Shown piece by piece: positions 5,865 through 59,071 of a DNA stretch of 64,000 nt; within the stretch, counting starts at the first letter, position 1; the number at the start of each line of letters is the position of its first letter. Both the position numbers and the translations under genes were made by a program. Location: contig BCGQ01000003.1 in assembly GCA_001599355.1 (NCBI GenBank), forward strand, positions 250,468-314,467, written 5' to 3'. The stretch comes from Nakazawaea peltata (lineage: Eukaryota > Ascomycota > Pichiomycetes > Alaninales > Pachysolenaceae). The notes under the pieces were generated by a model, which was given only the letters and a program-made list of their open reading frames with translations, was not told the DNA's origin and made no database searches.

Positions 5865-8492
5865 ATGACTCAAGTTACAGACGGAGTGAAACCCGATGAA
5901 GAAGTAAAGATCTCCCCAGGTACTAATAAAGTCATCTCCCCATCTGATGGGTCAGACTTGAAAGTATCAGGTAGAGTATTGAATGTGATGCCTACAATCC
6001 CAAATCAAATTTATCGTGAGACCACTGACAGCGAATGGGAAATTAAACACCTCAGAGGAAATTCAGCTTTATATTCGTCCAATTACTTTTTAGACCAGCA
6101 AACTGAATGGGAGACCCATTTGATCGGTTGGACCGGAGAGTTGACTACTTTGAATGATGACAGTAGTCTCAATGCGACTAAAGAAGCAGACCCATTGTAC
6201 TTGGACGACGAAGAGAAGGCTGACATTGAACTGAAAATCAAGCTCGCCAATAACACCGAAAATATTCACCCTGTTTGGTTATTAAGAAGAGATCAGCTGA
6301 GATGGGCAGAATATGCCGAGAACGTGTTATGGCCGGTCTTCCATTACATTCAGAATGACTATTCTGATGGTAAGCAAGAGGCTGATTGGTGGTACGATTA
6401 CGTCAGATTCAACGAAGCTTACGCCGCCAAAATCTGTAGTATATACCAACCTGGTGATATCATTTGGATCCATGATTATCAATTGTTATTATTACCCCAG
6501 ATTTTGAGAATGAGATTACCAAAACTGTACATTGGGTTATTTGTGCATGCTCCATTCCCATCATCTGAGTATTTCAGATGTCTTTCGAAGAGAAAACACT
6601 TACTCGATGGTATGTTAGGAGCTAACCAAGTTGGATTCCAATCGTACTCGTTTGCCAGACATTTCATTTCTTGTTGTTCGAGATTATTGGGAGCCGAAGT
6701 CAAACCTGATTCTATCAATGTTTATGGATCCCATGTCTCTGTAGTTGCTCAACCAATTGGTATCGATACTACCAGAATTGAAGAGCTGGCCTTTGATCCT
6801 TCTGTAGACCAGAAAGTACAACAAATCAGAGAATTGAATGAGGGAAAGAAGATCATTGTCGGAAGAGACAGATTGGATTCTGTCCGTGGAGTTATTCAGA
6901 AATTACAAGCATTCGAGATGTTTTTATCGATGTTCCCTGAATGGCGTGAGAAAGTAGTCTTGATCCAAGTAAGTTCTCCTACTCAATATCATTCTCTGAG
7001 AGTTGAAAAGAAGATCAATGAATTAGTTCACAGTATCAATGGAACTTATGGATCTTTAAACCATACACCAGTCCAACATTACCAATTGAGAATCGATAAA
7101 GAGGAATATATGGCTTTATTGAGAGTGGCTGACTTGTGTTTATTGACTTCTATTAGAGATGGTATGAATACTACTTCTTTAGAATTTGTTCTGTGTCAGA
7201 AGAACAACTGCAGTCCATTGATTTTGTCCGAGTTCACCGGTTCAGCTACTATCTTGGCTGATGCCACTTTAGTCAACCCGTGGGATTCTGTAGGGGTTGC
7301 CAAAGCTATCAATGACAGTTTATTAATGGAAACCGAAAAGAAAGTTGCTTTAGAACTGAAATTGTATGCTGAAGTATCTAAAAATACCGTCCAAGACTGG
7401 ACTTCCAACTTCCTCAAGAACTTAATTGATACTTTAGAAAAGACCAATGATAAGTATGGTACTCCATACTTGAATAGACCTTTGTTGTTGAAGAACTATC
7501 AACAAGCTTCTAGAAGATTGTTCCTCTTTGATTATGATGGAACGTTGACTCCTATCGTGAAGGATCCAAGTGCTGCTATTCCTTCCGCTAGATTAGGTAA
7601 TATCTTAGATAAGTTAGTAGAAGATCCTAAGAACCAGGTTTGGATCATCAGTGGTCGTGATCAGGAGTTCTTGGGTAGATGGTTGGGATCCAAAAACCCA
7701 CACTTGGGTCTCTCTGCCGAACATGGTTGTTTCATGAAAGATGTCAACTCTAAAGACTGGATGAATTTGGCTGAAACTTTTGATATGTCATGGCAGAAAG
7801 ATGTCACCGAGATCTTCCAAGAGTTCACCGATAAGACTCCTGGTAGTAATATTGAGTTCAAGAAAGTGGCCATCACTTGGCATTATAGAAAGGCTGACCC
7901 TGATTTAGGAGAGTTCCAAGCTCAACAAGCCACTCAGACTCTTTTAGATACCGTTGCTAAGAAATATGACGTTGAGGTCATGAACGGTAAGGCTAATGTT
8001 GAAGTTAGACCTAAATTTTTGAACAAGGGAGAGATCGTAAAGAGATTAGTATTGAATTCACATGGATCTAAACAATCTTCTGAAGCTGTTCTGGCTGTCG
8101 ACGACGTCAAGTTTGGTGAATTGCCAGATTTCATCTTATGTCTTGGAGATGATCAGACAGATGAAGATATGTTTACGGCATTGAATGTGATTGAGGAGGA
8201 TTGGACTAAAGCAGTTCAACCAAGAAACAAATTCGACTCTTATGGTATTTACCCGGTAACTGTGGGTCCAGCTAATAAGAAGACCGTTGCTAAAGCTCAT
8301 CTTTCCGATCCAAATCAAGTCTTAGATACTCTTGGATTGTTGGTGGGACAGGTTTCACTTTTCGAGACTGGAGGAACAGTCGATTTGGATGATAGAGGAC
8401 ATATTAAAGATTCTGTCTCTAGTTCACGTTCTCAAGCTGCTATCAAGGCACATTCATTGAAACGTCAACTGAGTCTGAAATCAATTGAATAA
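5865..8492 (+). CDS. TPS2: Trehalose-6-phosphate phosphatase
   Basis: The product has 875 residues, close to the 896 of S. cerevisiae Tps2. The N-terminal half is a GT20 trehalose-6-phosphate-synthase-like domain (for example GRDRLDSVRG and HAPFPSSEYFR). The C-terminal half is a HAD phosphatase with the nucleophile motif DYDGT at residues 556-560 and the later acidic motif LGDDQTDEDMF. It removes phosphate from trehalose-6-phosphate in the Tps1/Tps2/Tsl1 complex, the last step of trehalose synthesis. The frame is open nine codons further upstream but only from a TTG, so the ATG at 5865 is taken. STRE boxes upstream suggest stress induction. Several CTG codons fall at non-Leu positions, for example 7356 and 6297. 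Confidence 0.95.
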   Translation: MTQVTDGVKPDEEVKISPGTNKVISPSDGSDLKVSGRVLNVMPTIPNQIYRETTDSEWEIKHLRGNSALYSSNYFLDQQTEWETHLIGWTGELTTLNDDSSLNATKEADPLYLDDEEKADIELKIKLANNTENIHPVWLLRRDQLRWAEYAENVLWPVFHYIQNDYSDGKQEADWWYDYVRFNEAYAAKICSIYQPGDIIWIHDYQLLLLPQILRMRLPKLYIGLFVHAPFPSSEYFRCLSKRKHLLDGMLGANQVGFQSYSFARHFISCCSRLLGAEVKPDSINVYGSHVSVVAQPIGIDTTRIEELAFDPSVDQKVQQIRELNEGKKIIVGRDRLDSVRGVIQKLQAFEMFLSMFPEWREKVVLIQVSSPTQYHSLRVEKKINELVHSINGTYGSLNHTPVQHYQLRIDKEEYMALLRVADLCLLTSIRDGMNTTSLEFVLCQKNNCSPLILSEFTGSATILADATLVNPWDSVGVAKAINDSLLMETEKKVALELKLYAEVSKNTVQDWTSNFLKNLIDTLEKTNDKYGTPYLNRPLLLKNYQQASRRLFLFDYDGTLTPIVKDPSAAIPSARLGNILDKLVEDPKNQVWIISGRDQEFLGRWLGSKNPHLGLSAEHGCFMKDVNSKDWMNLAETFDMSWQKDVTEIFQEFTDKTPGSNIEFKKVAITWHYRKADPDLGEFQAQQATQTLLDTVAKKYDVEVMNGKANVEVRPKFLNKGEIVKRLVLNSHGSKQSSEAVLAVDDVKFGELPDFILCLGDDQTDEDMFTALNVIEEDWTKAVQPRNKFDSYGIYPVTVGPANKKTVAKAHLSDPNQVLDTLGLLVGQVSLFETGGTVDLDDRGHIKDSVSSSRSQAAIKAHSLKRQLSLKSIE

Positions 8493-8640
8493 TTATATAT
8501 AAAGTACTATACGTTGTTGATAAGACTTTCGTAAATTGCTGATGTAGATATGACATATTCTGTAAGCTGCTCAGGAGAAATATTCAAAAAATATGTCGTG
8601 TATCTTCGTAATGTGCTCATTAAATATGTACTTTTCAGAG

Positions 8641-8646
8641 ACGCGT
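8641..8646. promoter_or_regulatory. MCB-like ACGCGT box upstream of SCC4
   Basis: A palindromic ACGCGT lies 128 bp before the SCC4 ATG. This is the core bound by Mbp1-Swi6 in yeasts to drive G1/S genes, and cohesin-loading genes can be G1/S regulated. A single hexamer is weak evidence. Confidence 0.3.
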
Positions 8647-8773
8647 AGCCGATCTGAGGAAGAGATGAGGGAAGGTGGAGCTGATGGAAAGTAGAGCTCA
8701 CTAACTTACTATTGAGTTGATAGGCCTAGATCTGAGTCATTAATCTTTTTCCTATCTTATTAAGACTTCATCC

Positions 8774-10945: not shown

Positions 10946-10967
10946 CCATCAAGTGACCATTACCACT

Positions 10968-10997
10968 TGGTGTCATGATGTTGAGATCGTAACACCA
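10968..10997. repeat. Inverted pair of the TGGTGTYAYGAT dispersed motif
   Basis: TGGTGTCATGAT (10968-10979) is followed 6 bp later by ATCGTAACACCA (10986-10997), an imperfect inverted repeat. The same 12-mer recurs at 40643-40654 and 40839-40850. Here it lies between the SCC4 stop and the SMP-30 gene. Confidence 0.6.
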
Positions 10998-27648: not shown

Positions 27649-28173
27649 CTAACGATCTTCAGCCCATTCATTCTCTCTCTTAATGGCTACCTCTTCCTCA
27701 GCAGTGAAATCATTGACAATGTTAAAGGTTTTTCTGATCTCTTCTGGAGATTTACCTCTGATCATATCAGCAACCATCTTACATCCGGCAATTAACAATG
27801 GTTTGATGTTCATATAATTAGCAGCCAGAATAATCTCATACAACATCTCCTGATCAGTACTTAAGAAATGCTTGTCCCATTCAGCAATAGGAGCAGATTT
27901 CATAGAATCATCATCTTCTTCATCATCAAATTCCTCATCTTTGTAATGCTCACACCATTCCAAAACGAATTTCATCACCGAGGATGACACATTTGGTAAT
28001 GGAATCTGCACTGGTTCGTCATCATCATCGTCTTCTTCTTCCTCATCTTCATCTCCTCCCAGTGGGAACAAATCCTTCAACATATTTTTCAATAAAATGG
28101 ATTTCTCCATTACTTTTCTCTCAACTGGGAACTTCTCCTCATCCGAGGAAACTAAAACATACTTTCTAACCAT
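27649..28173 (-). CDS. SKP1: SCF ubiquitin ligase adaptor Skp1
   Basis: The 174-residue product is near-complete Skp1. It has the N-terminal BTB-like fold with [20 protein letters not shown], an acidic Asp/Glu loop expanded as in fungi, and the highly conserved C-terminal F-box-binding region ([15 protein letters not shown], ending ENEWAEDR). It links Cul1/Cdc53 to F-box proteins and is also part of the CBF3 kinetochore complex and RAVE. The computed frame reaches back to a GTG at 28209, but the ATG at 28173 gives the normal N-terminus. A 4-codon upstream ORF lies at 28217-28231. One codon at 27826-27828 is CTG at a Leu conserved in all Skp1 proteins I know. Confidence 0.96.
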
Positions 28174-32787: not shown

Positions 32788-34500
32788 ATGGACTCAGAAG
32801 CAATAGCTACATTCCTTCTGATCACAGGCACCGAGGATGGTGCCATGGCTTCCAATTTTTTGGAAATGAGTGGTGGTGACTTAGATACCGCCGTCTCTTT
32901 ATATTTCGAACATGGGGCAAACGCGCTGGGCGCTACCAATGGCGACTCAGGATCCAACCCGAGACTGGATGACGAAGAATTGGCTCAGAGACTCCAATCT
33001 GAATCATATAATGAGAATCCTGATGAAGTAAGAGCACCAATTCTGTCGACTGTCCAACGTTTAGTCGACGATATCACCCCATTCTACAATGATCTGCCAT
33101 TGAATCCGGCTCAATTATTCGCCGGACGCGGTCCACTGGGGGTTTTCAACCAATTGAACAATCTGTTTCTGTCTAGAACACATAATGCATTTGACTACGA
33201 TGGTATGGATGAACAGGAGGAGAATTATGACGACGATGATGACTATGATATAGCAGAAGTTGATGGTGGAGATGATGAGTATGAGGTCATTCAAGAGGGA
33301 GATGATAATGTTTATTCGGATGAGGAATTAGTTCAGACCACAGATAATGAGGGTGATATTACATATGTACGTAGAAGAGTGTTGAGGAGATTGAATCCTA
33401 GACGGAATTCGAGTTCTCGCAGACGTCTTTCTCATCAAGCATCGCATAGACTGAGATTAGCTCAACTTTTTAGACCTCCATTTGATATCATTTCTAAATA
33501 TGATTTAAACATGGCCAAGACAGTTGGAAAACTGGAGAAGAAGTGGATTATGGTCAATGTACAAGATATGTCTGAGTTCCTGTGTCAGCTGTTGAATAGA
33601 GATCTTTGGTCCCAGACTGAAGTCAAGGATATGATTAAATCCAATTTTGTATTCTTACAATATCCTCATGATTCTCAAGTTGGGGAGGAATATAGAGGTT
33701 ATTATCCATTTAGTGAATATCCACATATCGCAATTTTAGATCCTAAGACAGGAGAACGTGTCAAAATGTGGACTGAGCTGCCTCTGCCACGCCGATTCAT
33801 TGAGCAATTGGTGGATTTCTTGGATCGCTTCTCTCTTGATCCTGGCCATGTCAATCCTATAGTACAACATAAGATAAAAGTTGATCCTAGCACTCTCTCG
33901 GAGGAGCAGCAGATGGAACTTGCGATTCTGAAATCGTTAGGGTCGCATGTAGAGCAAGGTGAGGGTGTTTCGGAACAGGGAACAGGTGATGATCCGATAT
34001 TATTGGATTCTGATGATGAGAATGGAGAGTATAGTGAATTTGAAGAGATTAGTGATGAAGAGGATGTAGTGGATAGAAAGGAGGTGGCTGCTGAGTCTGT
34101 TCCACCTGAGTCTGTGTCCACTGAATCAGTTTCTGAATCTGCTCCTGTACTGTCTGCCACTGCTAGTGCCCCAGAATCCTTAGAGACCTTAACTGACGAA
34201 GAAATATTCGCAATAATCTTACCAAAACCCCATGAAGAACCTCTGCCTGATAACTCGACTACTACAAGAATACAGATAAGATCGGGAGACGGTTCCAGAG
34301 TAGTACGTCGTTTCCAAAAATCAGATCCAGTTAAAGCTATTTATGAGTATATTAAGCATGACTTTGAGTCGGTTAAAGATGGTAAATTCTTCACTTTAAT
34401 GAGTCAGAGAACGAATTTAATTCGCAAAGTGGAAGATTCATTAGAAGAAGCAGGGCTCTTAAATGCTTCTATCTTGTTGGAAATTGAAGATTCAGAGTAA
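32788..34500 (+). CDS. UBX5: UBA-UAS-UBX protein Ubx5 (Cdc48 adaptor)
   Basis: The 570-residue protein has a UBA-like domain at 1-44 (GGDLDTAVSLYFEHG). A thioredoxin-like UAS domain follows at about 221-354, with KKWIMVNVQ, LNRDLWSQTEVKDMI and SNFVFLQYPHD. A C-terminal UBX domain lies at about 491-569. It is the orthologue of yeast Ubx5 and human UBXN7, adaptors that link the Cdc48/p97 segregase to ubiquitinated substrates and cullin ligases. The frame is open 73 codons upstream but from a TTG; the ATG at 32788 gives the classical N-terminus. Two CTG codons (33580 and 33589) fall in the EFxCQxLNRD stretch where UBXN7 has Ala and Cys. Its 3' end overlaps IRC3 by 9 bp. Confidence 0.9.
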   Translation: MDSEAIATFLLITGTEDGAMASNFLEMSGGDLDTAVSLYFEHGANALGATNGDSGSNPRLDDEELAQRLQSESYNENPDEVRAPILSTVQRLVDDITPFYNDLPLNPAQLFAGRGPLGVFNQLNNLFLSRTHNAFDYDGMDEQEENYDDDDDYDIAEVDGGDDEYEVIQEGDDNVYSDEELVQTTDNEGDITYVRRRVLRRLNPRRNSSSRRRLSHQASHRLRLAQLFRPPFDIISKYDLNMAKTVGKLEKKWIMVNVQDMSEFLCQLLNRDLWSQTEVKDMIKSNFVFLQYPHDSQVGEEYRGYYPFSEYPHIAILDPKTGERVKMWTELPLPRRFIEQLVDFLDRFSLDPGHVNPIVQHKIKVDPSTLSEEQQMELAILKSLGSHVEQGEGVSEQGTGDDPILLDSDDENGEYSEFEEISDEEDVVDRKEVAAESVPPESVSTESVSESAPVLSATASAPESLETLTDEEIFAIILPKPHEEPLPDNSTTTRIQIRSGDGSRVVRRFQKSDPVKAIYEYIKHDFESVKDGKFFTLMSQRTNLIRKVEDSLEEAGLLNASILLEIEDSE

Positions 34501-36390
34501 TAATTTCAGATTCTTATCGATCTCCTTCTTGGGAAGGATTTTCTCCTTGATATATTCTTGCAAGCAATATTTACCCCCAACGGAATACCCAAAAATCAAA
34601 TCTGAAGCGACATTCTTGGTCATGGAGTTCAAATAAGCCTCTAATACTTTGGAGAATTCAGATGAGTTGATTTTGGAGTTCTCAATGGCCACCATGAACT
34701 TCTCAAATAAAAAATTATATTGTTTGGGGGTGATTTTGGTGTTATGATGTTGGGCAAATTTCTTGGAAGGATATTTGGATTCATGTTCTTCCAAATGAGC
34801 AGTAGCTCGTTCAAGTACCTCGTCAAGATTCGATGACCTTTTCAATACAATGGAAGGAACCTTGAATCTCAGTTTGCCCTGGAAATATTTCTTGACCTCG
34901 TACTGTTTCGACTTGTTAAGATCAAGCCTTAAGTAAGAGGAAAAATCGATCATCACCAGCCAGGATTTTTTTCCTACTCGGATCCAAGGAAGGTCGTGTT
35001 TTTTTAACAAAATATGGAGGGGTTCTTTGGTGGTCTTTAACTCTTTGAGATATTCATGTATACTATCATAAGTTGTATATTGTACTTCTTTTAGTTCGTC
35101 TTGTAGTCCTAAGGACATGGAGGAGTCCATTCTAAGTTGTTCGTTTTGGAATCCAAGTCCTTTCATTGGGATATTTCCTGCTAATGAAGGCTGTAATTGT
35201 ATCCCTGTTTCTCTAATATCTACAAAATCTACAATATGACATTTCTCTTTATTTTCATGGAGTCTGAGACCTCTGCCTATCATTTGTAGTAACAATGGAC
35301 GAGATTGAGTAGGTCTTACGATGAAAATCGAGTCAATGTTTGGGATATCTGTACCCTCTGTGAGTACTCCACAATTCATAAGAACATCGATATCTCCATT
35401 TTTGAAATCCTCGATGATGGACTGTCTTTCGGAGCTTCTGGTCTCGCCAGTAAGATACTGACAGTTAATCCCATTCAAACGAAATAAATCAGATAATGTC
35501 TTCAAATGTTCAATATTAACACAGAAGAAAAGAGTAGATTTGAAATCAAACTTCTGTCTATGGGAGATGTATGTTTTCAAAGCTAACTCATTTACATGAG
35601 GAGTATTTACATATTTGGCCAAGCAAGCCAAGTCATAGTCTCCAGAATTCGTGAGTGGAACATCCTTCAAACCAATTTTAGCATGTACAGGAGTTATCCG
35701 GAGATCCACCAACCAATTCTCATCTATCATTTCTACAAGATCTTTATTATATACAACTTCTTGGAATACTTTAGCCAAGGGGAGTTTATCGTGACGTTTT
35801 AAAGTGGCAGAGAAACCTAATATTGGAATGGAGTCATTTTTCAAGCAGTCGAAATAGTCAAATATTTTTAGATAAGAAGGAGAAACAGCATGATGACATT
35901 CGTCTACAACTATCAGTTTGTATTCACTAGGATCATAGAAAGCCAAACGTCTTCCTTCAGATCTGGTAAGAGATTGAACAGACAGAATTACGATATCTGC
36001 CTGGTGAGTCAGTTTTTTATCGGCCATATCAATCTCAACTGACATATGAGGGAGAAATTTCTTAATAGTAGACTCCAGTTGTAAGGCCAACTCTTTCCTA
36101 TGGACCAAAATCAACACTTTATGACCTCTAGTGATTGTATTTGGCGGTATTTTAGGTATGATATTACTGAATATCACCGTTTTACCTCCTCCTGTAGCTA
36201 AACTAACGGCAATCCTTGACTTCCCAGACTCAAGTCCCCTAAGACAGGAGTCTATACATTCTTGTTGATAGGGGCGGAGGATATAAGGTTCCAGGGCGGT
36301 CGCTGATTCGAGAACCGAGCTGGTTAGAGCTGTGGGATGAAATCTTCGTAATCCCAAACCACCACTACTTCGCACCAAGTATTTAAGCAT
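34492..36390 (-). CDS. IRC3: Mitochondrial DEAH-like helicase Irc3
   Basis: The 632-residue SF2 helicase begins with MLKYLVRSSGGLGLRRF, a basic mitochondrial presequence. Walker A is ATGGGKT at 65-71, motif II is DECHHA at 163-168, motif III is GFSATL, and motif VI is the segment ending IGRGLRL. This matches Irc3, a double-stranded DNA-stimulated ATPase needed for mitochondrial DNA maintenance in yeast. It converges on UBX5 with a 9 bp overlap of coding sequence (34492-34500) and diverges from GPI8 over only 150 bp. A CTG (36076-36078) in the HRKELALQ-x segment is at a position often Ala in this family. Confidence 0.9.
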   Translation of the reverse strand: MLKYLVRSSGGLGLRRFHPTALTSSVLESATALEPYILRPYQQECIDSCLRGLESGKSRIAVSLATGGGKTVIFSNIIPKIPPNTITRGHKVLILVHRKELALQLESTIKKFLPHMSVEIDMADKKLTHQADIVILSVQSLTRSEGRRLAFYDPSEYKLIVVDECHHAVSPSYLKIFDYFDCLKNDSIPILGFSATLKRHDKLPLAKVFQEVVYNKDLVEMIDENWLVDLRITPVHAKIGLKDVPLTNSGDYDLACLAKYVNTPHVNELALKTYISHRQKFDFKSTLFFCVNIEHLKTLSDLFRLNGINCQYLTGETRSSERQSIIEDFKNGDIDVLMNCGVLTEGTDIPNIDSIFIVRPTQSRPLLLQMIGRGLRLHENKEKCHIVDFVDIRETGIQLQPSLAGNIPMKGLGFQNEQLRMDSSMSLGLQDELKEVQYTTYDSIHEYLKELKTTKEPLHILLKKHDLPWIRVGKKSWLVMIDFSSYLRLDLNKSKQYEVKKYFQGKLRFKVPSIVLKRSSNLDEVLERATAHLEEHESKYPSKKFAQHHNTKITPKQYNFLFEKFMVAIENSKINSSEFSKVLEAYLNSMTKNVASDLIFGYSVGGKYCLQEYIKEKILPKKEIDKNLKLLL

Positions 36391-45218: not shown

Positions 45219-46160
45219 ATGACACTGAGTATTAGGGTTATCAGATCTGTCAAAGAGTTCAGAGCGTTTAAGCAGCAATGCACGTTGGCGCAAAAATCGA
45301 TAGGGTTTGTGCCTACCATGGGTGCCTTACATAAGGGGCACTGTTCTTTGGTACAAAAGTCGTTAGATAGCGATGACACCACCGTGGTGTCGATCTTCGT
45401 CAACCCTTCGCAATTTGCACCAACTGAAGATTTAGATGCTTACCCTCGTATGCTTGATGCTGATTTGAAAACCTTATCGAATTTAAATGGAAGAAACGGC
45501 GGTGTAGATGTCGTCTTCGCCCCTACTGTTAGTGAGATGTATCCTAATGGTATCCCATTGGACCCTAAACAACAAACTGGTGCCTTTGTATCTGTTTTGG
45601 GAGTCAGTGAGGTACTTGAAGGTGCATGTAGACCAAATTTCTTCAGAGGTGTTGCCACTGTTGTAACCAAATTGTTCAACGTTGTACAGCCTCTGCGTGC
45701 TTATTTTGGAGCCAAAGATATCCAGCAGACAATTGTATTGAAAAGAATGGTCGAAGATTTATTGATTCCTGTTGATTTACAAGTTTTGCCTACAGTTAGA
45801 GAAGATACTGGTTTGCTGATGAGTTCAAGAAATGCTTATCTTTCCGAGGAGACCAGATCTCAATCTGCTGTTATCTACTCTGCTTTGCATGCTTCTGAAT
45901 TATTATATAAGAAAGGTAACAATAATGCCGTTGAAATTTTACTGGAATTCAGCAACGTTTTACTGCCTTACTTAGATGGAACAAAAGGAACTTTTGAGAT
46001 CGACTACATCAAGTTGAACCATCCAAAAACATTGGAAGAACTTAACGATCAAATTGATCCAACTATTGGAGCTATCATGAGTACAGCTATCAAAGTGCCT
46101 AAAGCTGACGGAGGACAAGCAAGACTCATTGATAATATAATTCTTCTGCCAAAAAACTAA
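45219..46160 (+). CDS. PAN6: Pantothenate synthetase (pantoate-beta-alanine ligase)
   Basis: The 313-residue enzyme has the nucleotidyl-transferase motif PTMGALHKGH, then VSIFVNPSQFAPTEDLDAYP, AYFGAKDIQQ and MSSRN, which together mark PanC/Pan6. It joins pantoate and beta-alanine with ATP in the last step of pantothenate synthesis, leading to CoA. The start is the first ATG after a stop. Two CTG codons are informative: 45816-45818 in GLxMSSRN, where the family has Ala, and 45693-45695 in QPxRAYFG, where relatives have polar or small residues. It converges with OLE1 at 42 bp. Confidence 0.95.
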   Translation: MTLSIRVIRSVKEFRAFKQQCTLAQKSIGFVPTMGALHKGHCSLVQKSLDSDDTTVVSIFVNPSQFAPTEDLDAYPRMLDADLKTLSNLNGRNGGVDVVFAPTVSEMYPNGIPLDPKQQTGAFVSVLGVSEVLEGACRPNFFRGVATVVTKLFNVVQPLRAYFGAKDIQQTIVLKRMVEDLLIPVDLQVLPTVREDTGLLMSSRNAYLSEETRSQSAVIYSALHASELLYKKGNNNAVEILLEFSNVLLPYLDGTKGTFEIDYIKLNHPKTLEELNDQIDPTIGAIMSTAIKVPKADGGQARLIDNIILLPKN

Positions 46161-46202: not shown

Positions 46203-47777
46203 TCATGCGGCACCGGCAGTGGCCGAATGCAGCTTCGTAATCGTAACTTGTTCACCGCTTCTGACGATGGATTTGCCCTCACTATCTTGTTTCAAAGGCA
46301 CCTCTTTGTTCTCTATCTGCTGTTGTTTCCAAGCTAATTGTTCCGAATCGAGTCCCTTAAGAACTGCCACTCTCATAGTAGCCAATAAATTATGCGCAGC
46401 GTTTGTATGGTCATAAACTGCTCCATTGAAAGCCGAGGTGGCATCCTTTCCTATAGACAGACGAATTAAAGCGACACCTCCAGGGTGACTCGAAACAAAA
46501 GAAGTCACATCATGTACAATACCAGAAACAACCACCAATGCTTTTGTAGGATTATTCTGTACTAATCTTTTGAATTCGGTAGGTGTTACTTTAGGCAATT
46601 CGGCAATTGGAATTCCCCAGTTTAATTTCAGTCTTTTACGATCAAGTAAGGTTTGCTGATGCTGAATATATAATTGACGGATCAGATTCAGTGGGGTTCG
46701 TTTCAAATTTGACACCAATCCAATACAACTCAACATATAAAGACTCCATTTAGTTGGGTCAAAATTGTACCAATGAATTCCATTTCTGTAATCTGAGGGG
46801 AACTCATGGTGGAAATTATGATGACCCTCTCCAAAAGTAACAAAATCCAAGAGGAAATTGTTTCTTGGGGATTTACGATCATCATAAGGTTGAGATCCAC
46901 AACAATACTTTGAATGGCATACCGAATTGACAAAAAATGATGATTGTTGCACAGCAACAACTTTCAAGATCCCTCCATATATGACTCCTCCAATGAAATC
47001 ATCCCAATACCAGCCACATACTAAACCTGGAACTATCAAACCGAAAAATATGAAGATCTTAGCGTAATTCTCACGTTGCCATTGTAATAAAAGATCATCT
47101 TTCAAGTCATCGTATTCACTTTCCTTAACCAGAGCTTTAACTTTGAGATGATGTCTTACTACCATCCAACCAAAATGACAATACCAAAACCCTTTCCTAC
47201 TATTATGAGGGTCCCTATCGGTATCACAATATCTATGGTGCAGTCTATGTGCACATGACCACCATTTCAGATTCCCCACACCTGCGGATGCTCCACTCAC
47301 TAACAACACCAAATTGAAAATTTTGGAGTTTATTGTGAATGATCTATGGGCATAATAACGATGATAGCCTATGTTCAAGGCCAAAGAGGTGACCAAATAG
47401 TTCAAAAATGCAAATTTCAACGTCTGTTGTTTTAATGGGAGGTCAAAAACAAACGGATAGACCATTCCTATCAGTGGGATCAATAGAATAAAACTAATAT
47501 TAGTCCAATGTAAATGTTTGTACCAGTTGTAGAAGGTCCATTTTCTCTCACTAATCTGACGTCTGATCCGCTGTTGTTGAGTTTGTTCATGAATAACCTT
47601 CACCTTATTTCTCCTCTTCACTTTAACAACTCTGGGGGCGGAGGGTTCTTCGGTCTCGATGATCTGCAGAACTTTGTCTGTACTGAGGCTGTCCAAAACA
47701 TTCGAATCCTCCTGCAGCTTCTCTCCCAAGAACCTATTCAACTCTTCCTCCGGATACTCAGCCTCCTCAATACTCAT
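46203..47777 (-). CDS. OLE1: Stearoyl-CoA delta-9 desaturase with cytochrome b5 domain (Ole1 family)
   Basis: The 524-residue protein has a soluble N-terminus and about four membrane segments. It carries the three histidine boxes of the di-iron centre: HRYYAH at 139-144, HRxHH at 177-181 and HHNFHH in the segment EGHHNFHHEFPSDYRNG. The C-terminal cytochrome b5 domain has the heme ligand HPGG and the second His in YDHTNAAHN. It introduces the 9-10 double bond into palmitoyl- and stearoyl-CoA in the ER. Box regions deviate from S. cerevisiae Ole1 (HRYYAH for HRLHSH, CAHRxHH for GHSHRIHH), so an OLE2-like paralogue is possible. The frame reaches a GTG at 47813; the ATG at 47777 is used. Six CTG codons here mostly fit Ala or other small residues. 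Confidence 0.88.
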   Translation of the reverse strand: MSIEEAEYPEEELNRFLGEKLQEDSNVLDSLSTDKVLQIIETEEPSAPRVVKVKRRNKVKVIHEQTQQQRIRRQISERKWTFYNWYKHLHWTNISFILLIPLIGMVYPFVFDLPLKQQTLKFAFLNYLVTSLALNIGYHRYYAHRSFTINSKIFNLVLLVSGASAGVGNLKWWSCAHRLHHRYCDTDRDPHNSRKGFWYCHFGWMVVRHHLKVKALVKESEYDDLKDDLLLQWQRENYAKIFIFFGLIVPGLVCGWYWDDFIGGVIYGGILKVVAVQQSSFFVNSVCHSKYCCGSQPYDDRKSPRNNFLLDFVTFGEGHHNFHHEFPSDYRNGIHWYNFDPTKWSLYMLSCIGLVSNLKRTPLNLIRQLYIQHQQTLLDRKRLKLNWGIPIAELPKVTPTEFKRLVQNNPTKALVVVSGIVHDVTSFVSSHPGGVALIRLSIGKDATSAFNGAVYDHTNAAHNLLATMRVAVLKGLDSEQLAWKQQQIENKEVPLKQDSEGKSIVRSGEQVTITKLHSATAGAA

Positions 47778-49981: not shown

Positions 49982-52418
49982 TTACATTTCGGCCGGTCCT
50001 GGGGAACCGTCGAAGCCTTGGTTTGATTGCTGTTGGAACTGCTGTTGTTGTAACATCTGCTCTTGTAACTTTGCCCTTTGAGCAGCCAATTGCAGAGGTG
50101 TAGGTGTAGGTGTAGAAGTAGGAGTAGATGATCCGGAAACTGGAGCAGCTGCTCTATTACCAGGAGTCATTAATGATGCCGCATTGATTGTTGAATTATT
50201 ATTGACTCGATTTCCATTGCCTTGTGTAGCCATTCGAAGTCTTTGCTGCTGAACTTGTAAAATTTGCTGTCTCTGTGCAGTAGTAAGAGATGGACTGTTT
50301 GCCAATTTGGCCAATTGAGCAGAATTCAACATTTGAAGACTAGATACTAAATTACGAGCTGGTTGTTGAACCGTTTGAGTGCCATCCAGTAATTGAACTG
50401 GTTGAGACAGCATTGGAGTAGTTGGTGTGCTGGTGCTTTGTTTCTTATTAGAAAGAGCACGATGTTGCAGTTGTTGTTGTTGGGCACTTAAATTGTGTAA
50501 ATAAGAAGCAGCCAATCTACTTACTTGTTGTTTGTTTAAGTGAGGATGTTGAGTTTGGATCTGTTGGACAATTGCTGCAACTTGATTGTTGGAAAACGAG
50601 GTAGCAAAAGGCTTAGATGAGGCAGCTCCAGCTACTGATCCACTTTTGGAGGGAGTGGACGATGGTGACATACTCTTACCTGCTAAATTAGCTGCCATAG
50701 TTACCGGTGTTCCCCCATTAGAATTATTCGTAGATGAAGGTGCTGACAGCAGTACTTGCTGCTGTTGTTGTAATTGCAGTTGTAATTGCAGCAGTTGTCT
50801 TTGTCTTTGAAGTTGTAATAATTGTTGGATCTGTTCAGGGGTGTATGTTTGACCATTTGGACCTGTGATGGATCCAACAGGATTACTTTTACTTCTTTGA
50901 CCATCAACAGAGGCACGAGCAGCTAACAGCAGCAGTTGTTGTTGTTGGCTTTGTTGCAGTAATCTGGCCTGTTGCAGCAGTAAAGCTGCAGCAGTGGCTG
51001 AAGTCAGAGGGGTCGCATTCTTAGGTGGTGGTGTACCAATTACTCCGTTCTTAGTCATGAACGTATTGCCATCTAATGGACTAGCTTGTCTTGGAATCGG
51101 AGAACCTGAACCTGATTGAGGAACCTGCAGTTGCTGTTGAGATTGCAGCATACGTTGCGCCAGAACAACTTTCAGCAGTTGCAGTTGTTGTTGTAAAGCA
51201 AGAGGGTTACCAGTCGATGTTGATTTACCTTTAGCAGCATTAGCCTGGGCCAGTGCTGCGGCAAGTTGTCTTTGAACCAGTTGAACCAGAGGATTAGATG
51301 CTGCTGCTTGAGTATTAAGAGAAGACGAGGAAGATCCAGATCTCTTAACACCATTTCCAGCAGCCGATTGATGCAGATAAGCCTCTTGAATGACCTTATC
51401 ACGTTCGTATTTCAATTTAGCCAAATCCAGAGGTGTTGGAGCTGAAATCTTCTTATCATCTCTACGAGTAGTGCTAGTATTATTTGGTTTAGGAGCACTT
51501 TCACGTTTCTTCATCAACTTTCTCATTGCCTCGAACATACTGGCCCATCTTAAACGTTTGTGTCCTCTTTGGATGGATTCATTGCCAACACCCAAAGGTG
51601 AGATTCTACGTTTTGTGGTCGATTGCAGTTTATGAGCTGTCTCCAACCAAACTTGAGCCTGAGCAGTGTATCCACCTCTCATATCACTGAATTGGAACTT
51701 ATCATTCAATTGAATGTATCTCTCAAAACATTGCCAAGGAGTTCTTCTCTCAATGTTCGAGACATATCCTTTGGTAGCTTTGTCAGAAAGATGAGCAGAG
51801 ATGATATTCCAATTGAACTGGAATTCTGCAACATATCGGATGAGATATCTATCATCTTCTGGTAACCAAATAGTTGGGATACGAAGATCCATGTACTTCA
51901 AAGGAGGAGGTATTGGAGGTCTAATGAAGGTCAATCTCTTAGTTGAACTGAACCCGAATAAACCTTTTTCTGTAGCGTAAGATGATCTCTTTAAGAAGTA
52001 GTTTTCTTTCAGTAATACTTTGTACCAACCTTCTTCATTTTCATCGATAGGAGTCAAAAGTTTACTGACTGCCAGGATTGGAGCTTCTTTTGGCTTCGAT
52101 GAATCTGAGAATGGGTCAAACGAAGGAATGGAATCCATGAGGTTTTGATTAAGAGAGGATAATTCATCGATATCAACATACATTTTGAATGGGTTGACCA
52201 CTGAGTCTGGTAATTCTTCTTTGGTGAATTGGGGTAAAGATGGAGGGATTATTTCGGATGAAGGATCAGGACGTTTCAAGAGGGAAGAGATATCGATGGT
52301 GTCAGATTCTTCGGTATCAGATTCCTGAGCATCGATTTCTTTAGATTCTGTATCGTTCTTTGTCTGGTCTTGGTCTTCCTCTCCGTCTTCCTCTTCATCA
52401 CTATCATCCTCCTCTTCC

Positions 52419-52450
<32 letters not shown>

Positions 52451-54135
52451 TTCTTCTTCTTCTTCTTCCTCCTCTTCTACCTTTACCTCAGCCTTTGTCT
52501 CCTCCATTTCAACATCTTCATCTCCCTTCTCTTCTCCTCCCTTCTCTTCGTCTACCACAACCTCGCTCTCATCCTCCTTCTTCTCCTCATCTTCTCCCTT
52601 CTCACCTATATACTTTATCTCCTTCCTCTTAACACACATCACCTTTCCATAAGTCCAATAATCCATCACGGCTTGCGCAATAAACATACATTGAACCAAT
52701 TTAAACTTACGTCCTTCCTTGAAATCGGTGGCCATCCATTTGGCTTCATGAATCAAGTTCGTCCAATGACTATTCTCATTATAACGAAGGAAAGGTTCTT
52801 GGAATTTGATAGGCTGACGGAGAGACCATTTCTTTTGCCTCTTCAACTCTTCAATTCTCGAATACACAACAGCCAACTTTCCTTCTAATAAAGCACTCTC
52901 AAAGGCCTCAGTTGTTAAAGTCTTGTGGGTTGTAGGAATCAATTTTGATAACGGACATGTTTGAGTAAGGTAATATAATTCAGCCAATGGAGAAGACTCT
53001 GGTATCTGATCGGGAAGATGACCCGGCATCAATAGCACCGATAATTTGTTGATGTCTATATTGGTTATATCTAAATCACGTCTTTGAGTATGTAATTCTT
53101 TCTCTGTGAGATCAGCTGGTTTAGATTCAGCATATGCCTTGATTAATGTGGATAATGTAGGAGAAGGAACATAATCATCTGGGATAGGAGGTGGAGCAAG
53201 AGGCTCTTCTCTTTGAGAGGGCACGACATCCGAGATAACTTGTTCTTCCGGCTCTTTTTCTTCAGAAGTCTTTTGAATCTTCAGAGCAGGCTCTTCATTA
53301 GTTGGTTCCAGTGAACGTTTCAGTGATGAAGCATCTGATGAAGGCGATTCCACCTCTTTCAGTTGTTTTATTGGAACTGGGGGAGTTGTACGTCTCGAAG
53401 TTGAAGGTGTACCTTGTACAGAGACAGACTGAGGTTCAGCCAGTAGTGTCAGTAAAGGCTGAGATTTCTTCAGAGGTACTGTTTGAGGAGTCTTAGATTG
53501 CGATGCCACTGGTACCGGTTGCTTACCCTTCGGTGTCAGTACAGTTGAATTATTCCTAGAATTTGTCCCTGTGGTTATAGGTTGCTGAGGTAAAGATGAA
53601 ATATCAAATTTGTGGCCTTTCTCTAAAGCATTTCTTTCCAAAAACAAGAGTAAATTCGTCTCATTTTCCAATAATTTCAGATCTGAAATGGGTATAAGTG
53701 GGGATTTGGTGACGAAATATAATTCAGCCAACTTTCTCTTTCTCAGTTTGAGTATTTCACTATCAATGTTAGTAAAAATATAGGTGTGGATGGGTTGAAT
53801 TGTGTGGGGAATACGTACCTTGATTTCAATTTTCGTCTTTCTGTAGCTTCTATCCTGAGCTTACTCATTGTCTGGGTGTGTTAGTAATAATTCGGGGGGT
53901 TGAGATGAATCCATTAGAGAGCCCCTCAAAGGGCCCCTTAGCAGCGGCTCACTGTGCGACCTTGCTGGCTCGCTCGCTCACTGGGGCCCGCTCACGCTCA
54001 CTGGCCCGCGTAAGGAAAAACTAAGGCAAAATGGGCGGTAAAGACACCAAAGTAGGGACAAATTCAGGTACTTACGCCATTGGCTGGGACACTGGTTTTG
54101 GTCGCCAGGGTATCTGTGGTGTTATTTGAGCTCAT
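49982..54135 (-). CDS. EAF1: NuA4 scaffold Eaf1/Vid21, three exons
   Basis: Exons on the minus strand are 54135-54076, 53871-53819 and 53759-49982, joined by introns with GTAAGT and GTACGT donors and TACTAAC branch sites. The product is 1296 residues. The N-terminus is MSSNNTTDTLA and exon 3 contains RKRKLAELYFVT, matching RDRKLTELYCVS of S. cerevisiae Vid21. The HSA domain is at about 350-400 (IHEAKWMATDFKEGRKFKLV), with a long Glu/Asp run at about 455-490. A SANT/Myb domain lies at about 665-720 (WLPEDDRYLIRYVAEF onward), and the tail from about 877 is Gln-rich. Eaf1 is the platform that joins NuA4 modules, and its HSA binds Arp4-Act1. In exon 3 alone the first start-like codon is a TTG at 53731. 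Acceptor AGs 18-24 nt downstream also keep frame in exon 3. Confidence 0.9.
53760..53818 (-). other. EAF1 intron 2 (59 nt)
   Basis: Donor GTACGT at 53818-53813, branch TACTAAC (complement of 53768-53774), then ATTGATAG with acceptor AG at 53761-53760. It splits a Ser codon AG|T. In-frame AGs at 53743-53742 and 53737-53736 are possible alternative acceptors, lengthening the intron to 77 or 83 nt. Confidence 0.8.
53872..54075 (-). other. EAF1 intron 1 (204 nt)
   Basis: Donor GTAAGT at 54075-54070, branch TACTAAC (complement of 53880-53886), then ACACCCAG with acceptor AG at 53873-53872. The 204 nt intron joins codons in phase 0 (GGC then ACA). It contains a GC-rich core with GCTCACTG three times on the plus strand, at 53947, 53976 and 53996. 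Confidence 0.85.
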
Positions 54136-54348
54136 ATCGAGCAGATTTGGTGATGGATTACTCACAATAACAACCAAACAGTGGACCTATCAAGTCTTGT
54201 TTACACAGAGCGTTTCTTAATAAAAGTAATATTTCGGCGCTTTTCATTTCGTTTAAAAATTTTTCTTAGTAATGGTCGTGTGTTTGGTATCAAAGAGGGA
54301 AAGGGGAAGTAGAGGAAAGGGATACTAAGGGGATACACAGAGTTAAAG

Positions 54349-54384
54349 GGGGTAGGAGATGGGGTAGGAGATGGGGTAGGAGAT
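54349..54384. repeat. 12 bp tandem repeat, 3 copies
   Basis: Three perfect copies of GGGGTAGGAGAT lie head to tail, followed by GAGAAGGGGAGG, in the EAF1 upstream region. Function not evident. Confidence 0.92.
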
Positions 54385-54557
54385 GAGAAGGGGAGGAATG
54401 AACACCTAAAAAATAAGATACACTGTATGAATTATACGACAGTAGTGGGGAGGTAATGATCTGGATATGAAAGTGTATTATCTCTATAGTTTTAATAGTG
54501 ACAGATGACAAATCTATGGTACTGTGGTACCCTTTCGATTCCCCTCCCTTCCCCCTC

Positions 54558-54618
54558 CACTTCCCCCTTAATTACCCCTTCAATTACTCCCTTAAATACC
54601 CCTTTAATTACCCTTCAG
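54558..54618. repeat. Degenerate AATTACCCCTT array
   Basis: Four imperfect 13-14 bp units around AATTACCCCTT follow one another, from a CCCCC run into TTAATTACCCCTTC, CAATTACTCCCTT, AAATACCCCTT and TAATTACCCTTCAG. Each carries a CCCT core, close to a STRE. Confidence 0.7.
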
Positions 54619-54896
54619 TTTTTCACATCACCTAAAATTAATTAATCCACAAAATCCCAACTATTTAAAGACCAAATTTACTACAAAAATTATCACCCTT
54701 TATAATTACCCCTTAACGCACCTTCCCTAATTAGATTGCCCTTAGGTGATGTCTACACACACAGAAGAATAAACAATATCTATTCATATTCAAAAGCAAA
54801 AAAGTAAAGTAATCATTATATATCCATGTAGTGAATGTAAGAGACAGTTGTTTCTACCTCTTCATTTGTATGCTCATCTATTCATATGCTGTCGTA

Positions 54897-55874: not shown

Positions 55875-56406
55875 TTTGTACAGATGTGTCAGTTCAAACT
55901 CCGCGGGATATAAAAGTAAGGCAATAGTTCACCAAAAATTGAAGAACTATGACAAAGTTAATATCCAGAGTTGATGCTATATCAGTTTTAGACTTGAAAT
56001 CAATACACAGATCCTCTGTTTTATATATATGATCAGGTTTAATGAATGTTTATATGGCTCGGATACTGGTTCAAAGTGGAAAAATTTTAACTAAGTCTGT
56101 GCTTTTTTTTTGCCCTCACGATAAAAAAAATTTTCCCTCTATAGTTAATAAGCAAGGCTATTTTTGTGTGTGTTTTTGTTTTATCTTTGCATTACAAGGA
56201 AAAAGGCATGATTAAAAGGGCAAAGATAAGGATTTTTTTAGCGGGTTCCCCTCTCTTCCGGGAAAGAATAGGTCTATTTTGAAACAAATATTATGGAACA
56301 ATCGAAGGGACTGGGGCATATTTTAGGGTTTCGAAGATATTATTAGGGGGAGGTAGTATTGTATGGAGATTTAAGGTAAATGTAAATACTGAAATATATA
56401 AAAGTA

Positions 56407-56445
56407 TTAGTTAGATGTGTTAGGTAGATGTGTTAGGTAGATGTG
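56407..56445. repeat. 13 bp tandem repeat, 3 copies
   Basis: Units TTAGTTAGATGTG, TTAGGTAGATGTG and TTAGGTAGATGTG follow head to tail, with one mismatch in the first. The G-T-rich unit is superficially like some yeast telomere repeats, but the array is short and internal. Confidence 0.9.
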
Positions 56446-57051
56446 TATAGTTAAAACTGTGGGGTGAATTTCATAACTAACGATATATCCAAGATATGCA
56501 GAAATTATGATAAGAAAGTTTTGAATGGTCAGGCCGCTCTTGTTGCCACGTTCCGTAGCCTCCATGTGTCATGGTTTTTATCTCACACATTGATAAGAAA
56601 GATTGCCTAATTAGGTAAGTGCCCTGTTGACGGGAAAAGGTCGTGCAAATAATTTAGCAAGAAACAAAAGTCAGGGAAATCTCGGCCATAATAAGCCTGA
56701 GCTATAATAAGCCCCAGTTTTACTTGTTCTTGGGGCAAGACATAAATCGGAAAAACAGTAAGGGAGGGTGAAAAATAGTGAACTATAGCGATGGGGTTTA
56801 GATTTGGATACACCTTTCGATGTTGGTTTTGTTTAAGCACTGCCTTCTACCCTTCAGTGCTCTACAAATGACATTCTGCGTGCACCACATCTCCTCACTG
56901 TTCACTCTCCTACTTCTATTTCTCTCCTCCCACCTCCCCTACCGCCCAGATCCATCACATGTCGCCTATAATTTCCCTATAATCCCCAGCTTTTCCCTCT
57001 TCCTCTCCCACCTCTCCTATACTTTTTCCCTTCCTTTCCTTCACTTTTTCC

Positions 57052-57108
57052 CTTCCTCTCCCTCACTTTTCTTCCTCTCCCTCACTTTTCTTCCTCTCCC
57101 TCACTTTT
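57052..57108. repeat. 19 bp pyrimidine tandem repeat, 3 copies
   Basis: Three perfect copies of a 19 bp C/T-rich unit (begins CTTCCTCTCC, ends CTCACTTTT) lie within a longer pyrimidine tract at 56960-57150. They lie 209-265 bp before the GGA2 start. Confidence 0.92.
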
Positions 57109-57287
57109 CCTCCCTACTTTTTCTCCCTACTTTTCCCTCACTTCCCCTACAGTAATAAATTAGCAGGAAAAAGAAATTCAAAACCTCCACCGAAATCACA
57201 ATTGATACTGCCAGGACAATTAAGCAATTGGTCATCTTAACTCCCTGGTATCATTACCAACATCACTCAGAAACATCCCTCATCCCA

Positions 57288-57311
57288 ATTGATTGATTGA
57301 TTGATTGATTC
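57288..57311. repeat. TTGA microsatellite
   Basis: About five to six TTGA units lie directly before the GGA2 leader, ending six bases before its ATG. They would be in the 5' leader of the mRNA. Confidence 0.85.
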
Positions 57312-57316
57312 CCACA

Positions 57317-59071
57317 ATGTCGTCTTTCTCTTCTGATTTACAGAATGCAAACCCGAAGCTTTTGAGAAGAATTCGTAAGTACCATTTGAGATAATTCATC
57401 TCGACATTTCATACTAACCAACCAACAGAAAGGGCTTGTAGACCAACATTGTCTCAACTGGATTTGGCTCTTAACCTTGAGATCTGTGATTTGATCAATG
57501 AGAAACAAGGTGCTTTACCAAGACATGCCGCCATAGTTACTGTCAAATTGATCAACAGCAGAGACCCTCAAGTCTCCGAATTGCTGGTTCAATTATTAGA
57601 TATTCTTGTCAAGAATTGTGGTTATCCATTCCATTTACAAATTTCAAGAAAAGAGTTCTTGAATGAGTTGGTCAAGAGATTCCCTGAAAGACCTCCTCCT
57701 AGATATTCAAGAACTCAAAGATTAATCTTGGGTTTGATCGAGGAATGGACTCAAACTTTATGTAAAACTTCCCGTTATAAGTCGGACTTAGGTTTCATTC
57801 GTGATATGAGAAGATTGTTGGCTTATAAGGGCTACATTTTCCCGGAATTGAAGAAGGAAGACGCTGCTGTTTTGAATCCTTCTGATAATTTGAAATCCAT
57901 TGAGGAGATCCAAAAGGAGGAAAAGATTCTGCAGAGTGCAAAATTACAAGAGTTAATTAGACGTGGAAGACCTCAAGATTTGAAAGAGGCCAATAAGTTG
58001 ATGAAGATCATGTCTGGTTTCAAAGACGAAGAAGTATTGGAGCTGACGAAACAGAAGGTTGCTGAAGATATCAATAAGTTGAAAAGAAAGTGTGACTTAT
58101 TTGAAGAGATGGTCAACAATGCGTCTAATCTGGGAACTATCGACTCATCAGATTCAACTATTACTGATTTATATGCATCTTTAAAAGTTCTGCAACCTAA
58201 GGTACTGAAAATTATCGAAGAAGAGAATGATGATCTGGAAGCCGTGACAGATTTATTACTGTTAAACGATAGAATTCATACCTTGCTTAATAGATATATT
58301 GCTTTGAAGGGTGGAGAGCCATTGCCTGCTCCATCTGGAGGCAGCAGTGCCGGTGGAGATCTTTTGAATTTGATCGACTTCGATGACAACGATAGTCCTC
58401 CTCCTCTGAATTCTGCTGACAATGGAAATTCCGCTGGTTCTGCTAATGATTTAGTTGATTTATTGGGTGATTTGAATTTCACTTCTACTTCTTCTGCTAA
58501 TCAAGGAGCTTCTTCTCAACAACTTCTCTTCGGAATGGGTGGTTCTATTGCTTTAGAAACTTCTCCTCCACCGCCTCTGGTTCCTATTTCTCCTCTTGGT
58601 GTACCAGCAGCTTCTCCAGTTGCTCTGGCTCCTGCCGCTGCTCCTGCTCAATCCCAAGGTTTAGACCCATTCCAATTTGATTTCGGTTCTCCATCTCCAA
58701 CCCCATCCTCCCTGGCTACCCCAGCTTCGATCCCTGGTAACATTCTTGTCCATCAAAGTCAGTATATCAAGTTCGAGTTCATTAAAATGTCGGCTTCAGA
58801 CTCTAAAATTTCATTGAAAGCCAGTTACTCCAACTTGACCTTGTCTGCTATCTCATCTTTACAAGTGATGTTGGCCGTGCCTAAATCATGGGAGTTGCAA
58901 TTGATGCCACAATCTGGTAGTTTCCTTGGTGGCTTGACCAACAACGGTATTAACCAATTTGTCAACTTGACTAAGAAGCAAGAGACCAATAAACAGTTGA
59001 AAATCAAATGGAAACTCAATTACATTGTCAATGGATCTAATATGGAAGAGACAGGTGTTGTTCTGATTTGA
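57317..59071 (+). CDS. GGA2: Clathrin adaptor Gga2 (VHS-GAT-GAE), two exons
   Basis: Exon 1 is 57317-57374 and exon 2 is 57429-59071, giving 566 residues. The joined N-terminus reads NPKLLRRIQRACRPTLSQ, close to the yeast Gga start. The VHS domain is at about 20-160 (LEICDLINEKQG, VKNCGYPFHLQIS, FLNELVKRFPERPPPR). The GAT helices are at about 195-320. A hinge rich in Pro/Ser/Asp with LLNLIDFDDND-type clathrin/AP motifs follows, and the C-terminal GAE ear runs from about 440. Ggas sort cargo from the trans-Golgi to endosomes with Arf1-GTP. The intron interrupts a Gln codon C|AA. A CTG at 57584-57586 falls at a position that is Ala in S. cerevisiae Gga2. Confidence 0.93.
57375..57428 (+). other. 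GGA2 intron (54 nt)
   Basis: Donor GTAAGT at 57375-57380, branch TACTAAC at 57412-57418, then CAACCAACAG with the acceptor AG at 57427-57428. The 54 nt intron restores the frame across exon 1 and exon 2 and gives a Gga-like N-terminus. Confidence 0.93.

Follow-up and report, generated by a model that had tools for sequence, protein, structure and literature searches.

CTG codons in the window

The window, by which we mean the whole 64,000-nucleotide stretch of Nakazawaea peltata DNA that was analysed, contains the genes TPS2, SKP1, PAN6 and OLE1, whose CTG codons are compared here with the residues of homologous proteins. A sequence-only reading of this DNA had named 15 CTG sites and proposed from them that CUG is reassigned; CTG is present at every one of these coordinates, on the strand it gave. 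TPS2, OLE1 and SKP1 were aligned with 120 homologues each, and the PAN6 columns were read from five listed PDB alignments out of 21 matches; 11 of the 15 named sites, those in these four genes, were aligned with homologues in this way; the other four lie in UBX5, ROD1, IRC3 and GGA2 (gene names as used in the sequence-only reading). The features are as follows.

1965..1967, + strand: CTG in ROD1 (CTG confirmed)
5865..8492, + strand: TPS2, trehalose-6-phosphate phosphatase, with 10 CTG codons
6297..6299, + strand: TPS2 CTG in RDQxRW (Ser 27, Glu 20, Asp 20, Leu 7 in 120 homologues)
6525..6527, + strand: TPS2 CTG in LPKxYIGLF, an Ala column (Ala 101/120)
7356..7358, + strand: TPS2 CTG in LExKLY (Asp 29, Ser 22 in 120 homologues)
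27649..28173, - strand: SKP1, with 2 CTG codons (PDB chains also aligned)
27826..27828, - strand: SKP1 CTG at residue 116, in YEIIxAANY, a near-invariant Leu (Leu in 112/120 homologues and in the five PDB alignments listed)
33580..33582, + strand: CTG in UBX5 (CTG confirmed)
36076..36078, - strand: CTG in IRC3 (CTG confirmed)
45219..46160, + strand: PAN6, pantothenate synthetase, with 6 CTG codons
45693..45695, + strand: PAN6 CTG in QPxRAYFG (T, H, Q, D and Q in the five listed PDB alignments)
45816..45818, + strand: PAN6 CTG in GLxMSSRN, an Ala column (Ala in 5/5 listed PDB alignments)
46203..47777, - strand: OLE1, acyl-CoA desaturase, with 11 CTG codons
46458..46460, - strand: OLE1 CTG in xSIGKD (Ser 86, Ala 25 of 120)
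46629..46631, - strand: OLE1 CTG in xKLNWG (Ser 57, Ala 55 of 120)
46683..46685, - strand: OLE1 CTG, second x of TPxNxIRQ (Glu 64, Ala 27 of 120)
46689..46691, - strand: OLE1 CTG, first x of TPxNxIRQ (Gln 63, Ser 19, Ala 15 of 120)
47241..47243, - strand: OLE1 CTG in HRxHH, an Ala column (Ala 84/120)
47268..47270, - strand: OLE1 CTG in NxKWW (Ile 65, Ala 44 of 119; Ala in four close relatives)
57584..57586, + strand: CTG in GGA2 (CTG and open frame confirmed; the frame runs on into the open reading frame listed from 57806)

The family residue expected at PAN6 45816, Ala, is the one found, and 45693 lies in a polar column, in keeping with the polar or small residue proposed for it. The homologue residues given there for OLE1 were partly wrong: Ala at 47241 stands, whereas 46458 is mostly Ser and 47268 mostly Ile, and 46629 is half Ser. 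The SKP1 codon at 27826 had been offered as a counter-example at an invariant Leu, and it is a genuine one; the CTG codon at OLE1 102 likewise lies at Leu of the homologues. The TPS2 codon at 6525 had not been listed among the 15, yet it agrees with Ala.

Column statistics

Over the 120 homologues, the commonest residues in the CTG columns of TPS2 are Ala (0.18), Asp (0.15) and Ser (0.14), with Leu outside the seven commonest, and those in the CTG columns of OLE1 are Ala (0.26), Ser (0.19), Gln (0.10) and Leu (0.08). Leu is the majority residue in 2 of 20 CTG columns of TPS2, OLE1 and SKP1, as against 94 of 136 columns of the other Leu codons (Fisher p = 5e-7), in agreement with the proposals that CUG is reassigned and that few CTG codons sit at conserved Leu; alignment of CTG mainly with Leu is not the case. 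Ala-majority columns are also scarce (2/20, far under the 44/81 of GCN codons). Scored as codons, the 20 CTG columns give -14.8 bits for Leu, 9.7 for Ser and 8.8 for Ala; on these columns Leu is rejected and Ser is tied with Ala, Ser being slightly higher. The same procedure called 48 of the 50 codons with at least five columns according to the standard code, the misses being ACA and CTG.

That Leu is still the meaning of CUG, through wobble reading by tRNA-Leu(UAG), with the mismatches due to chance or to surface positions, is extremely improbable. In its favor, the tRNA-Leu(UAG) gene is present and homologues have Leu at SKP1 116, at OLE1 102 and at sites of XRN1 and a PDR-type transporter; but we rejected this reading on the column counts, and the genome has a CAG tRNA that carries Ala identity elements. 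A reading of CUG as Ser, as in Candida and Debaryomyces (Ser1) or Saccharomycopsis and Ascoidea (Ser2), is favored by the window scores and by the Ser residues at OLE1 46458 and 46629. Our preference for Ala over Ser is therefore based on the solved homologues and the tRNA described below, not on the 20 window columns, and in their light we judge the Ser reading highly unlikely.

Alignments with solved homologues

Five proteins were aligned with one solved homologue each, and 49 of their CTG codons were compared in this way. Three of the proteins came from a list of 29 open frames lying outside the window; they had been picked as apparently well-conserved families, their sequences having been seen beforehand with CTG as Ala.

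PDR-type transporter against 7p03: Ala 8, Leu 2, Ser 1 of 21 CTG codons
XRN1 against 3pie: Ala 3, Leu 2, Ser 0 of 11
EXG1 against 2pb1: Ala 6, Leu 0, Ser 1 of 12
PAN6 against 9b2q: Ala 1, Leu 0, Ser 0 of 4
SKP1 against 1nex: Ala 0, Leu 1, Ser 0 of 1

The 49 codons thus face Ala 18 times, Leu 5 times and Ser twice. When the best-scoring transporter chain, 9iuk, replaces 7p03, the counts become 16, 5 and 5; the larger number of Ser residues is a point for the Ser reading, but Ala prevails with either chain, which, together with the tRNA, supports the earlier suggestion that CUG is more like Ala than Ser.

A tRNA with anticodon CAG

A class I pattern search located the following gene.

G000:C4:81426-81498, outside the window: tRNA with anticodon CAG; it has a short variable loop, A73 and G3:U70, the base pair that gives tRNA-Ala its identity

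Its acceptor stem is GGGCUUA/UUAGUCC followed by A73; tRNA-Ala(AGC) and tRNA-Ala(UGC) of this genome have the same bases at 1-4 and 69-73 and the same variable loop of five bases, AGGUC. A model built from these two tRNAs gives it 58.4 bits, close to the 56.8 bits that tRNA-Arg(UCU) obtains on the same model; a Ser/Leu model gives it 31.8, as against 72.7-102.3 for three intron-less Ser/Leu tRNAs. No other of the 55 + 29 pattern matches has a 5/5 anticodon stem, and a run of T resembling a Pol III terminator follows the gene. The tRNA contains the mismatches U6-U67 and U13-U22, has no Rfam match at the gathering score, and does not form a cloverleaf in its fold of lowest energy (z 0.15). The five-base variable loop and G3:U70 argue against tRNA-Ser, since a tRNA-Ser(CAG) of the Ser1 or Ser2 kind has a long variable arm.

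The genome has tRNA-Leu genes with anticodons CAA, UAA, AAG and UAG. Neither tRNA-Leu(CAG) nor tRNA-Ser(CAG) turned up among the matches examined in these non-exhaustive searches, which a CAG tRNA with an intron or unusual boxes could escape: a Ser/Leu D-arm pattern gave 19 places, none with a CAG anticodon, a TGGC-type A-box pattern gave 55 matches and no CAG tRNA, and a loose tRNA pattern gave 219 matches, which lie outside the conclusions drawn here. ARAGORN found no CAG anticodon in 63 loci scored with the Rfam tRNA family, which means little because these are just 63 of 608 candidates.

For the body of the CAG tRNA, tRNA-Ala is not clearly the closest relative. In a comparison set of 17 tRNAs, from which several isotypes are absent, it matches tRNA-Val(UAC) best (52/73, as against 49 for tRNA-Ala(AGC)), as do its D-arm and anticodon stem. 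BLAST with the CAG tRNA returned only itself, and BLAST with tRNA-Ala(AGC) returned only six tRNA-Ala genes; recent duplication of one of those therefore does not account for the CAG tRNA. Charging with Val, considered since the Val(UAC) body is nearest, was ruled out by G3:U70 and by the mean share of Val in CTG columns (0.05).

The anticodon loop, UUCAGGU, is the same as in the genome's tRNA-Leu(AAG) except at position 34. A35, G37, A73 and U33 in a tRNA are tied to leucylation in yeast, and the CAG tRNA carries all four, so that CUG might be mostly Ala with a small share of Leu. This we regard as unlikely. Leu-majority columns are over-represented for CTG relative to GCN codons (2/20 against 0/81), but the p value of 0.04 hangs on two columns; and G37 is expected anyway in tRNAs for codons starting with C, the genome's tRNA-Pro(UGG) having it too. 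PMC8645108 reports that leucylation of Candida tRNA-Ser(CAG) is raised by m1G37 and lowered by G33, but also that P. tannophilus CUG is more than 99% Ala, a claim of 10% Leu being called a method error. A broader proposal, to which we likewise give little credence, takes the CAG tRNA as a mosaic (Ala acceptor end; Leu-type loop with U33, A35 and G37, plus the terminal A73; Val(UAC)-like D-arm and anticodon stem) that is either dually charged, with CUG giving Ala plus a Leu share of a few percent and with certain CUG codons, such as that for SKP1 L116, kept at Leu sites, or not derived from tRNA-Ala by anticodon change alone.

Comparison with known codes

We conclude that CUG very probably encodes Ala, not Leu, in the nuclear code of N. 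peltata, by means of a dedicated CAG tRNA. What the sequence shows directly is the tRNA gene, its identity elements and the residue counts of the columns; from these we infer that the tRNA is expressed, charged with Ala and used in translation. Alanyl-tRNA synthetase would recognize it by the acceptor end (G3:U70, with A73), and would accept it because the enzyme requires no particular anticodon bases; Ala would then be put in at CUG.

Such a code is known for Pachysolen, Nakazawaea and Peterozyma, and both the reassignment and its clade are in print (PMC5951914); N. peltata is therefore a genuine though unexceptional example of something already described. Among the 120 listed matches each, the best named match is Pachysolen tannophilus, a CUG-Ala yeast, for Tps2 (72%) and Skp1 (81%), a further point against Ser; for Ole1 a Komagataella protein outscores a partial P. 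tannophilus entry, and the three sets contain no named Nakazawaea or Peterozyma protein. Most likely the code was inherited within the Alaninales (the Pachysolen clade), this yeast being distinct from P. tannophilus.

Like the CUG-Ala clade (Pachysolen, Nakazawaea and Peterozyma; order Alaninales; NCBI table 26), N. peltata has a CAG tRNA of its own that bears Ala identity elements. Our non-exhaustive searches found no tRNA-Leu(CAG). The yeast departs from the account in PMC5951914 in two respects: the clade's tRNA is described there as derived from tRNA-Ala, whereas the tRNA body here is not clearly nearest to it, and CUG is described as relatively rare in reassigned clades, whereas CTG is frequent here (18.5 per 1000 codons, about 28% of Ala codons). 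With CUG-Ser1 (Candida, Debaryomyces; NCBI table 12) it shares the loss of CUG from Leu to a CAG tRNA with an anticodon-independent synthetase, and G37, found in most Ser1 members; it differs in its short variable loop, G3:U70 and U33, where Ser1 has G33 and a Ser variable arm. CUG-Ser2 (Saccharomycopsis, Ascoidea) involves the same codon, but according to PMC5951914 four of five Ser2 species keep tRNA-Leu(CAG) beside tRNA-Ser(CAG), neither of which was found here.

If CUG is Ala, the proteins need NCBI table 26; under the standard code about 1.9% of the residues encoded by the open reading frames of the window would be wrong, some of them at strongly conserved positions, for example the Ala in GLAMSSRN of PAN6. 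One relative's protein (P0004), to all appearance a standard-code translation, shows Leu in three columns where 114, 92 and 116 of the others have Ala, a further point for the Ala reading. CUG would have become common as an Ala codon in conserved enzymes, which offers a case for studying how a reassigned codon is re-populated, and N. peltata would be useful for asking if any Leu decoding of CUG persists.

Evidence from window genes that CUG is not read as leucine

The 15 codons listed in the sequence-only reading are all CTG. We translated TPS2, OLE1 and SKP1 with CTG rendered as X, because bias was to be avoided, and aligned each with MAFFT to 120 listed homologues (of 5721, 1049 and 1351 matches, respectively); these sets, which were kept whole, contain CUG-Ser yeasts as well as assemblies in which CTG itself may have been translated wrongly. 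Of the 23 CTG codons in the three genes, 20 were used (column occupancy at least 70%) and three were excluded. The plurality residues at the 20 columns are Ser (five), Ala (four), Asp, Ile and Leu (two each) and others. Leu-majority columns account for 2/20 CTG codons (OLE1 102 and SKP1 116), as compared with 94/136 for the remaining Leu codons (p = 5e-7) and 0/81 for GCN codons (p = 0.04). A simple profile score, which recovers the standard amino acid in 48 of the 50 codons with at least five columns and misses ACA and CTG, gives CTG 9.7 bits for Ser, 8.8 for Ala, -5.6 for Gln, -13.7 for Val and -14.8 for Leu. On these column counts and profile scores, the window columns rule out Leu at CTG, in line with the reassignment suggested by the sequence-only reading, and leave Ala and Ser unseparated.

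Solved homologues and the choice between alanine and serine

We compared five proteins with solved structures, namely PAN6 and SKP1 from the window and a PDR-type ABC transporter, XRN1 and an exo-1,3-beta-glucanase from other contigs, choosing one homologue for each (9b2q, 1nex, 7p03, 3pie and 2pb1). Within the compared stretches, 49 of 66 CTG codons face a known residue, which by scripted count is Ala in 18, Leu in five, Ser in two and another residue in the remainder. Replacing 7p03, the third-ranked transporter chain, with the top-ranked 9iuk (which we take to be CDR1 of a CUG-Ser yeast) changes the counts to Ala 16, Leu 5 and Ser 5. The codons facing Ala include those in VSIxE and WDNxTRGLD of the transporter, GYWxFQL and ELSxxLTDC of the glucanase, and the PAN6 site GLxMSSRN, noticed before from sequence. 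The earlier preference for Ala over Ser draws support from the solved homologues and from the tRNA described below, and none from the 20 window columns. We consider it very probable that CUG is read as Ala in this genome.

A tRNA with anticodon CAG

A search for tRNAs with anticodon CAG and their identity elements, proposed in the sequence-only reading, yielded one gene, with G3:U70 (an Ala identity element) and A73. It is the only tRNA among 29 matches to a class I pattern for this anticodon (35 for the reversed-pattern control), and is single-copy by BLAST.

C4:81426-81498, tRNA with anticodon CAG
Adjoining it, exo-1,3-beta-glucanase gene (EXG1/XOG1 type)

Its sequence is GGGCUUA UG GUGU AGAGGUUA UCAC G UCCCG UUCAGGU CGGGG AGGUC UCGGG UUCGACC CCCGA UUAGUCC A, and its ARAGORN label, Leu, comes from the anticodon only. 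Bases 1-4, bases 69-73 and the variable loop are identical to both tRNA-Ala kinds found in the genome. The tRNA is presumably charged with Ala. A model built from both kinds scores it at 58.4 bits, versus 31.8 on a Ser/Leu model; because tRNA-Arg(UCU) reaches 56.8 on the same tRNA-Ala model, this score by itself is no proof of Ala ancestry. Of 17 tRNAs compared with it pairwise, Val(UAC) is the most similar (52/73 identical), followed by Ala(AGC) (49) and Ala(UGC) (48). The tRNA has mismatches U6-U67 and U13-U22, no Rfam match at gathering score, and a cloverleaf that is not its lowest-energy fold. In the D-arm and the anticodon stem it is similar to tRNA-Val(UAC), and its anticodon loop, UUCAGGU, matches that of tRNA-Leu(AAG) from this genome, UUAAGGU, at every position but 34.

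SKP1 116, where the closest relative and Pachysolen tannophilus both carry Leu, is unexplained if CUG is purely Ala: either the site tolerates Ala or a share of Leu is incorporated. U33, A35 and G37 stand in the loop of the CAG tRNA, whose discriminator is A73. According to PMC8645108, leucylation in Candida is raised by m1G37 and lowered by G33, and more than 99% Ala is reported for P. tannophilus.

Abundance of CTG

The genome, in which the window occupies C3:250468-314467, spans 11.63 Mb over 11 contigs. The 31 long ORFs of the window hold 312 CTG codons (18.76 per 1000), with other Leu codons at 94.6 and GCN codons at 48.5 per 1000; outside the window CTG stands at 18.5 and GCN at 47.6 per 1000 (120 open frames with a minimum length of 200 codons, putative genes totalling 48,073 codons, with locus overlaps removed by a simple key). 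With CTG included, Ala rises to 66-67 per 1000, and CTG makes up about 28% of Ala codons (312/1118 in the window, 891/3180 in the outside frames). As an Ala codon, CTG (18.5-18.8 per 1000 in the window and other loci) would be second only to GCT. We found one CAG tRNA gene as against four for Ala(AGC) and two for Ala(UGC), all six on contig C9.

Window 49982-53029, minus strand, presumably an EAF1-like gene, with 30 CTG codons

Many of these codons lie in Gln/Ala-rich low-complexity stretches, interspersed with GCN codons. An XRN1-like open frame on the minus strand of another locus (L074) ends in a Lys/Ala-rich tail (AKAKxKxExxKAKKxAKxKEENKAK), where Lys codons are interleaved with CTG and GCN codons. 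CTG is common here and also occupies some conserved Ala sites, at odds with PMC5951914, which describes CUG in reassigned clades as relatively rare and located where alignment is poor. Among the matches listed from open-licence PMC papers, we saw no mention of frequent CTG as an Ala codon.

Relation to known CUG codes

In PMC5951914 the Ala clade comprises Pachysolen, Nakazawaea and Peterozyma, and mass spectrometry is used to determine which code is read by 18 species at key positions. On the points open to testing, this genome agrees with that clade, for which CUG-Ala is already known; Nakazawaea belongs to the order Alaninales in the NCBI taxonomy, and the genome is distinct from P. tannophilus at species level or above. 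Three near-invariant Ala columns, filled by Ala in 114, 92 and 116 of the other sequences, have Leu in P0004, a relative's database protein and apparently a standard-code translation; this is expected if its source likewise reads CUG as Ala. P0124, apparently translated in the same way, has Leu at five CTG sites of the window OLE1. The residues given for CTG in public translations of the Ala clade are probably wrong.

Other tRNAs

ARAGORN finds no tRNAs in the window. A Ser/Leu D-arm pattern marks 19 places in the genome (three of them Thr), with Leu anticodons CAA, UAA, AAG and UAG, Ser anticodons AGA, CGA, GCU and UGA, and none with CAG. Among 55 TGGC-pattern and 29 class I matches, only the CAG tRNA has a full anticodon stem; the D-arm, TGGC and class I patterns revealed no second CAG tRNA, although one whose boxes are unusual, or which is interrupted by an intron, could escape them. 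One locus (L111), Val(CAC) according to ARAGORN, looks like Leu(CAA) with an intron.

C4:804518-804725 (1318-1525 of locus L108), minus strand, tRNA-Leu(UAG) with a 120-base intron predicted by ARAGORN

This intron is long for a yeast tRNA; the hand-joined exons fold well (z -2.5), though the cloverleaf is inexact. In the Leu1 clade, according to PMC5951914, introns of 134-318 bases occur in tRNA-Leu(CAG), whereas here the long predicted intron sits in tRNA-Leu(UAG).
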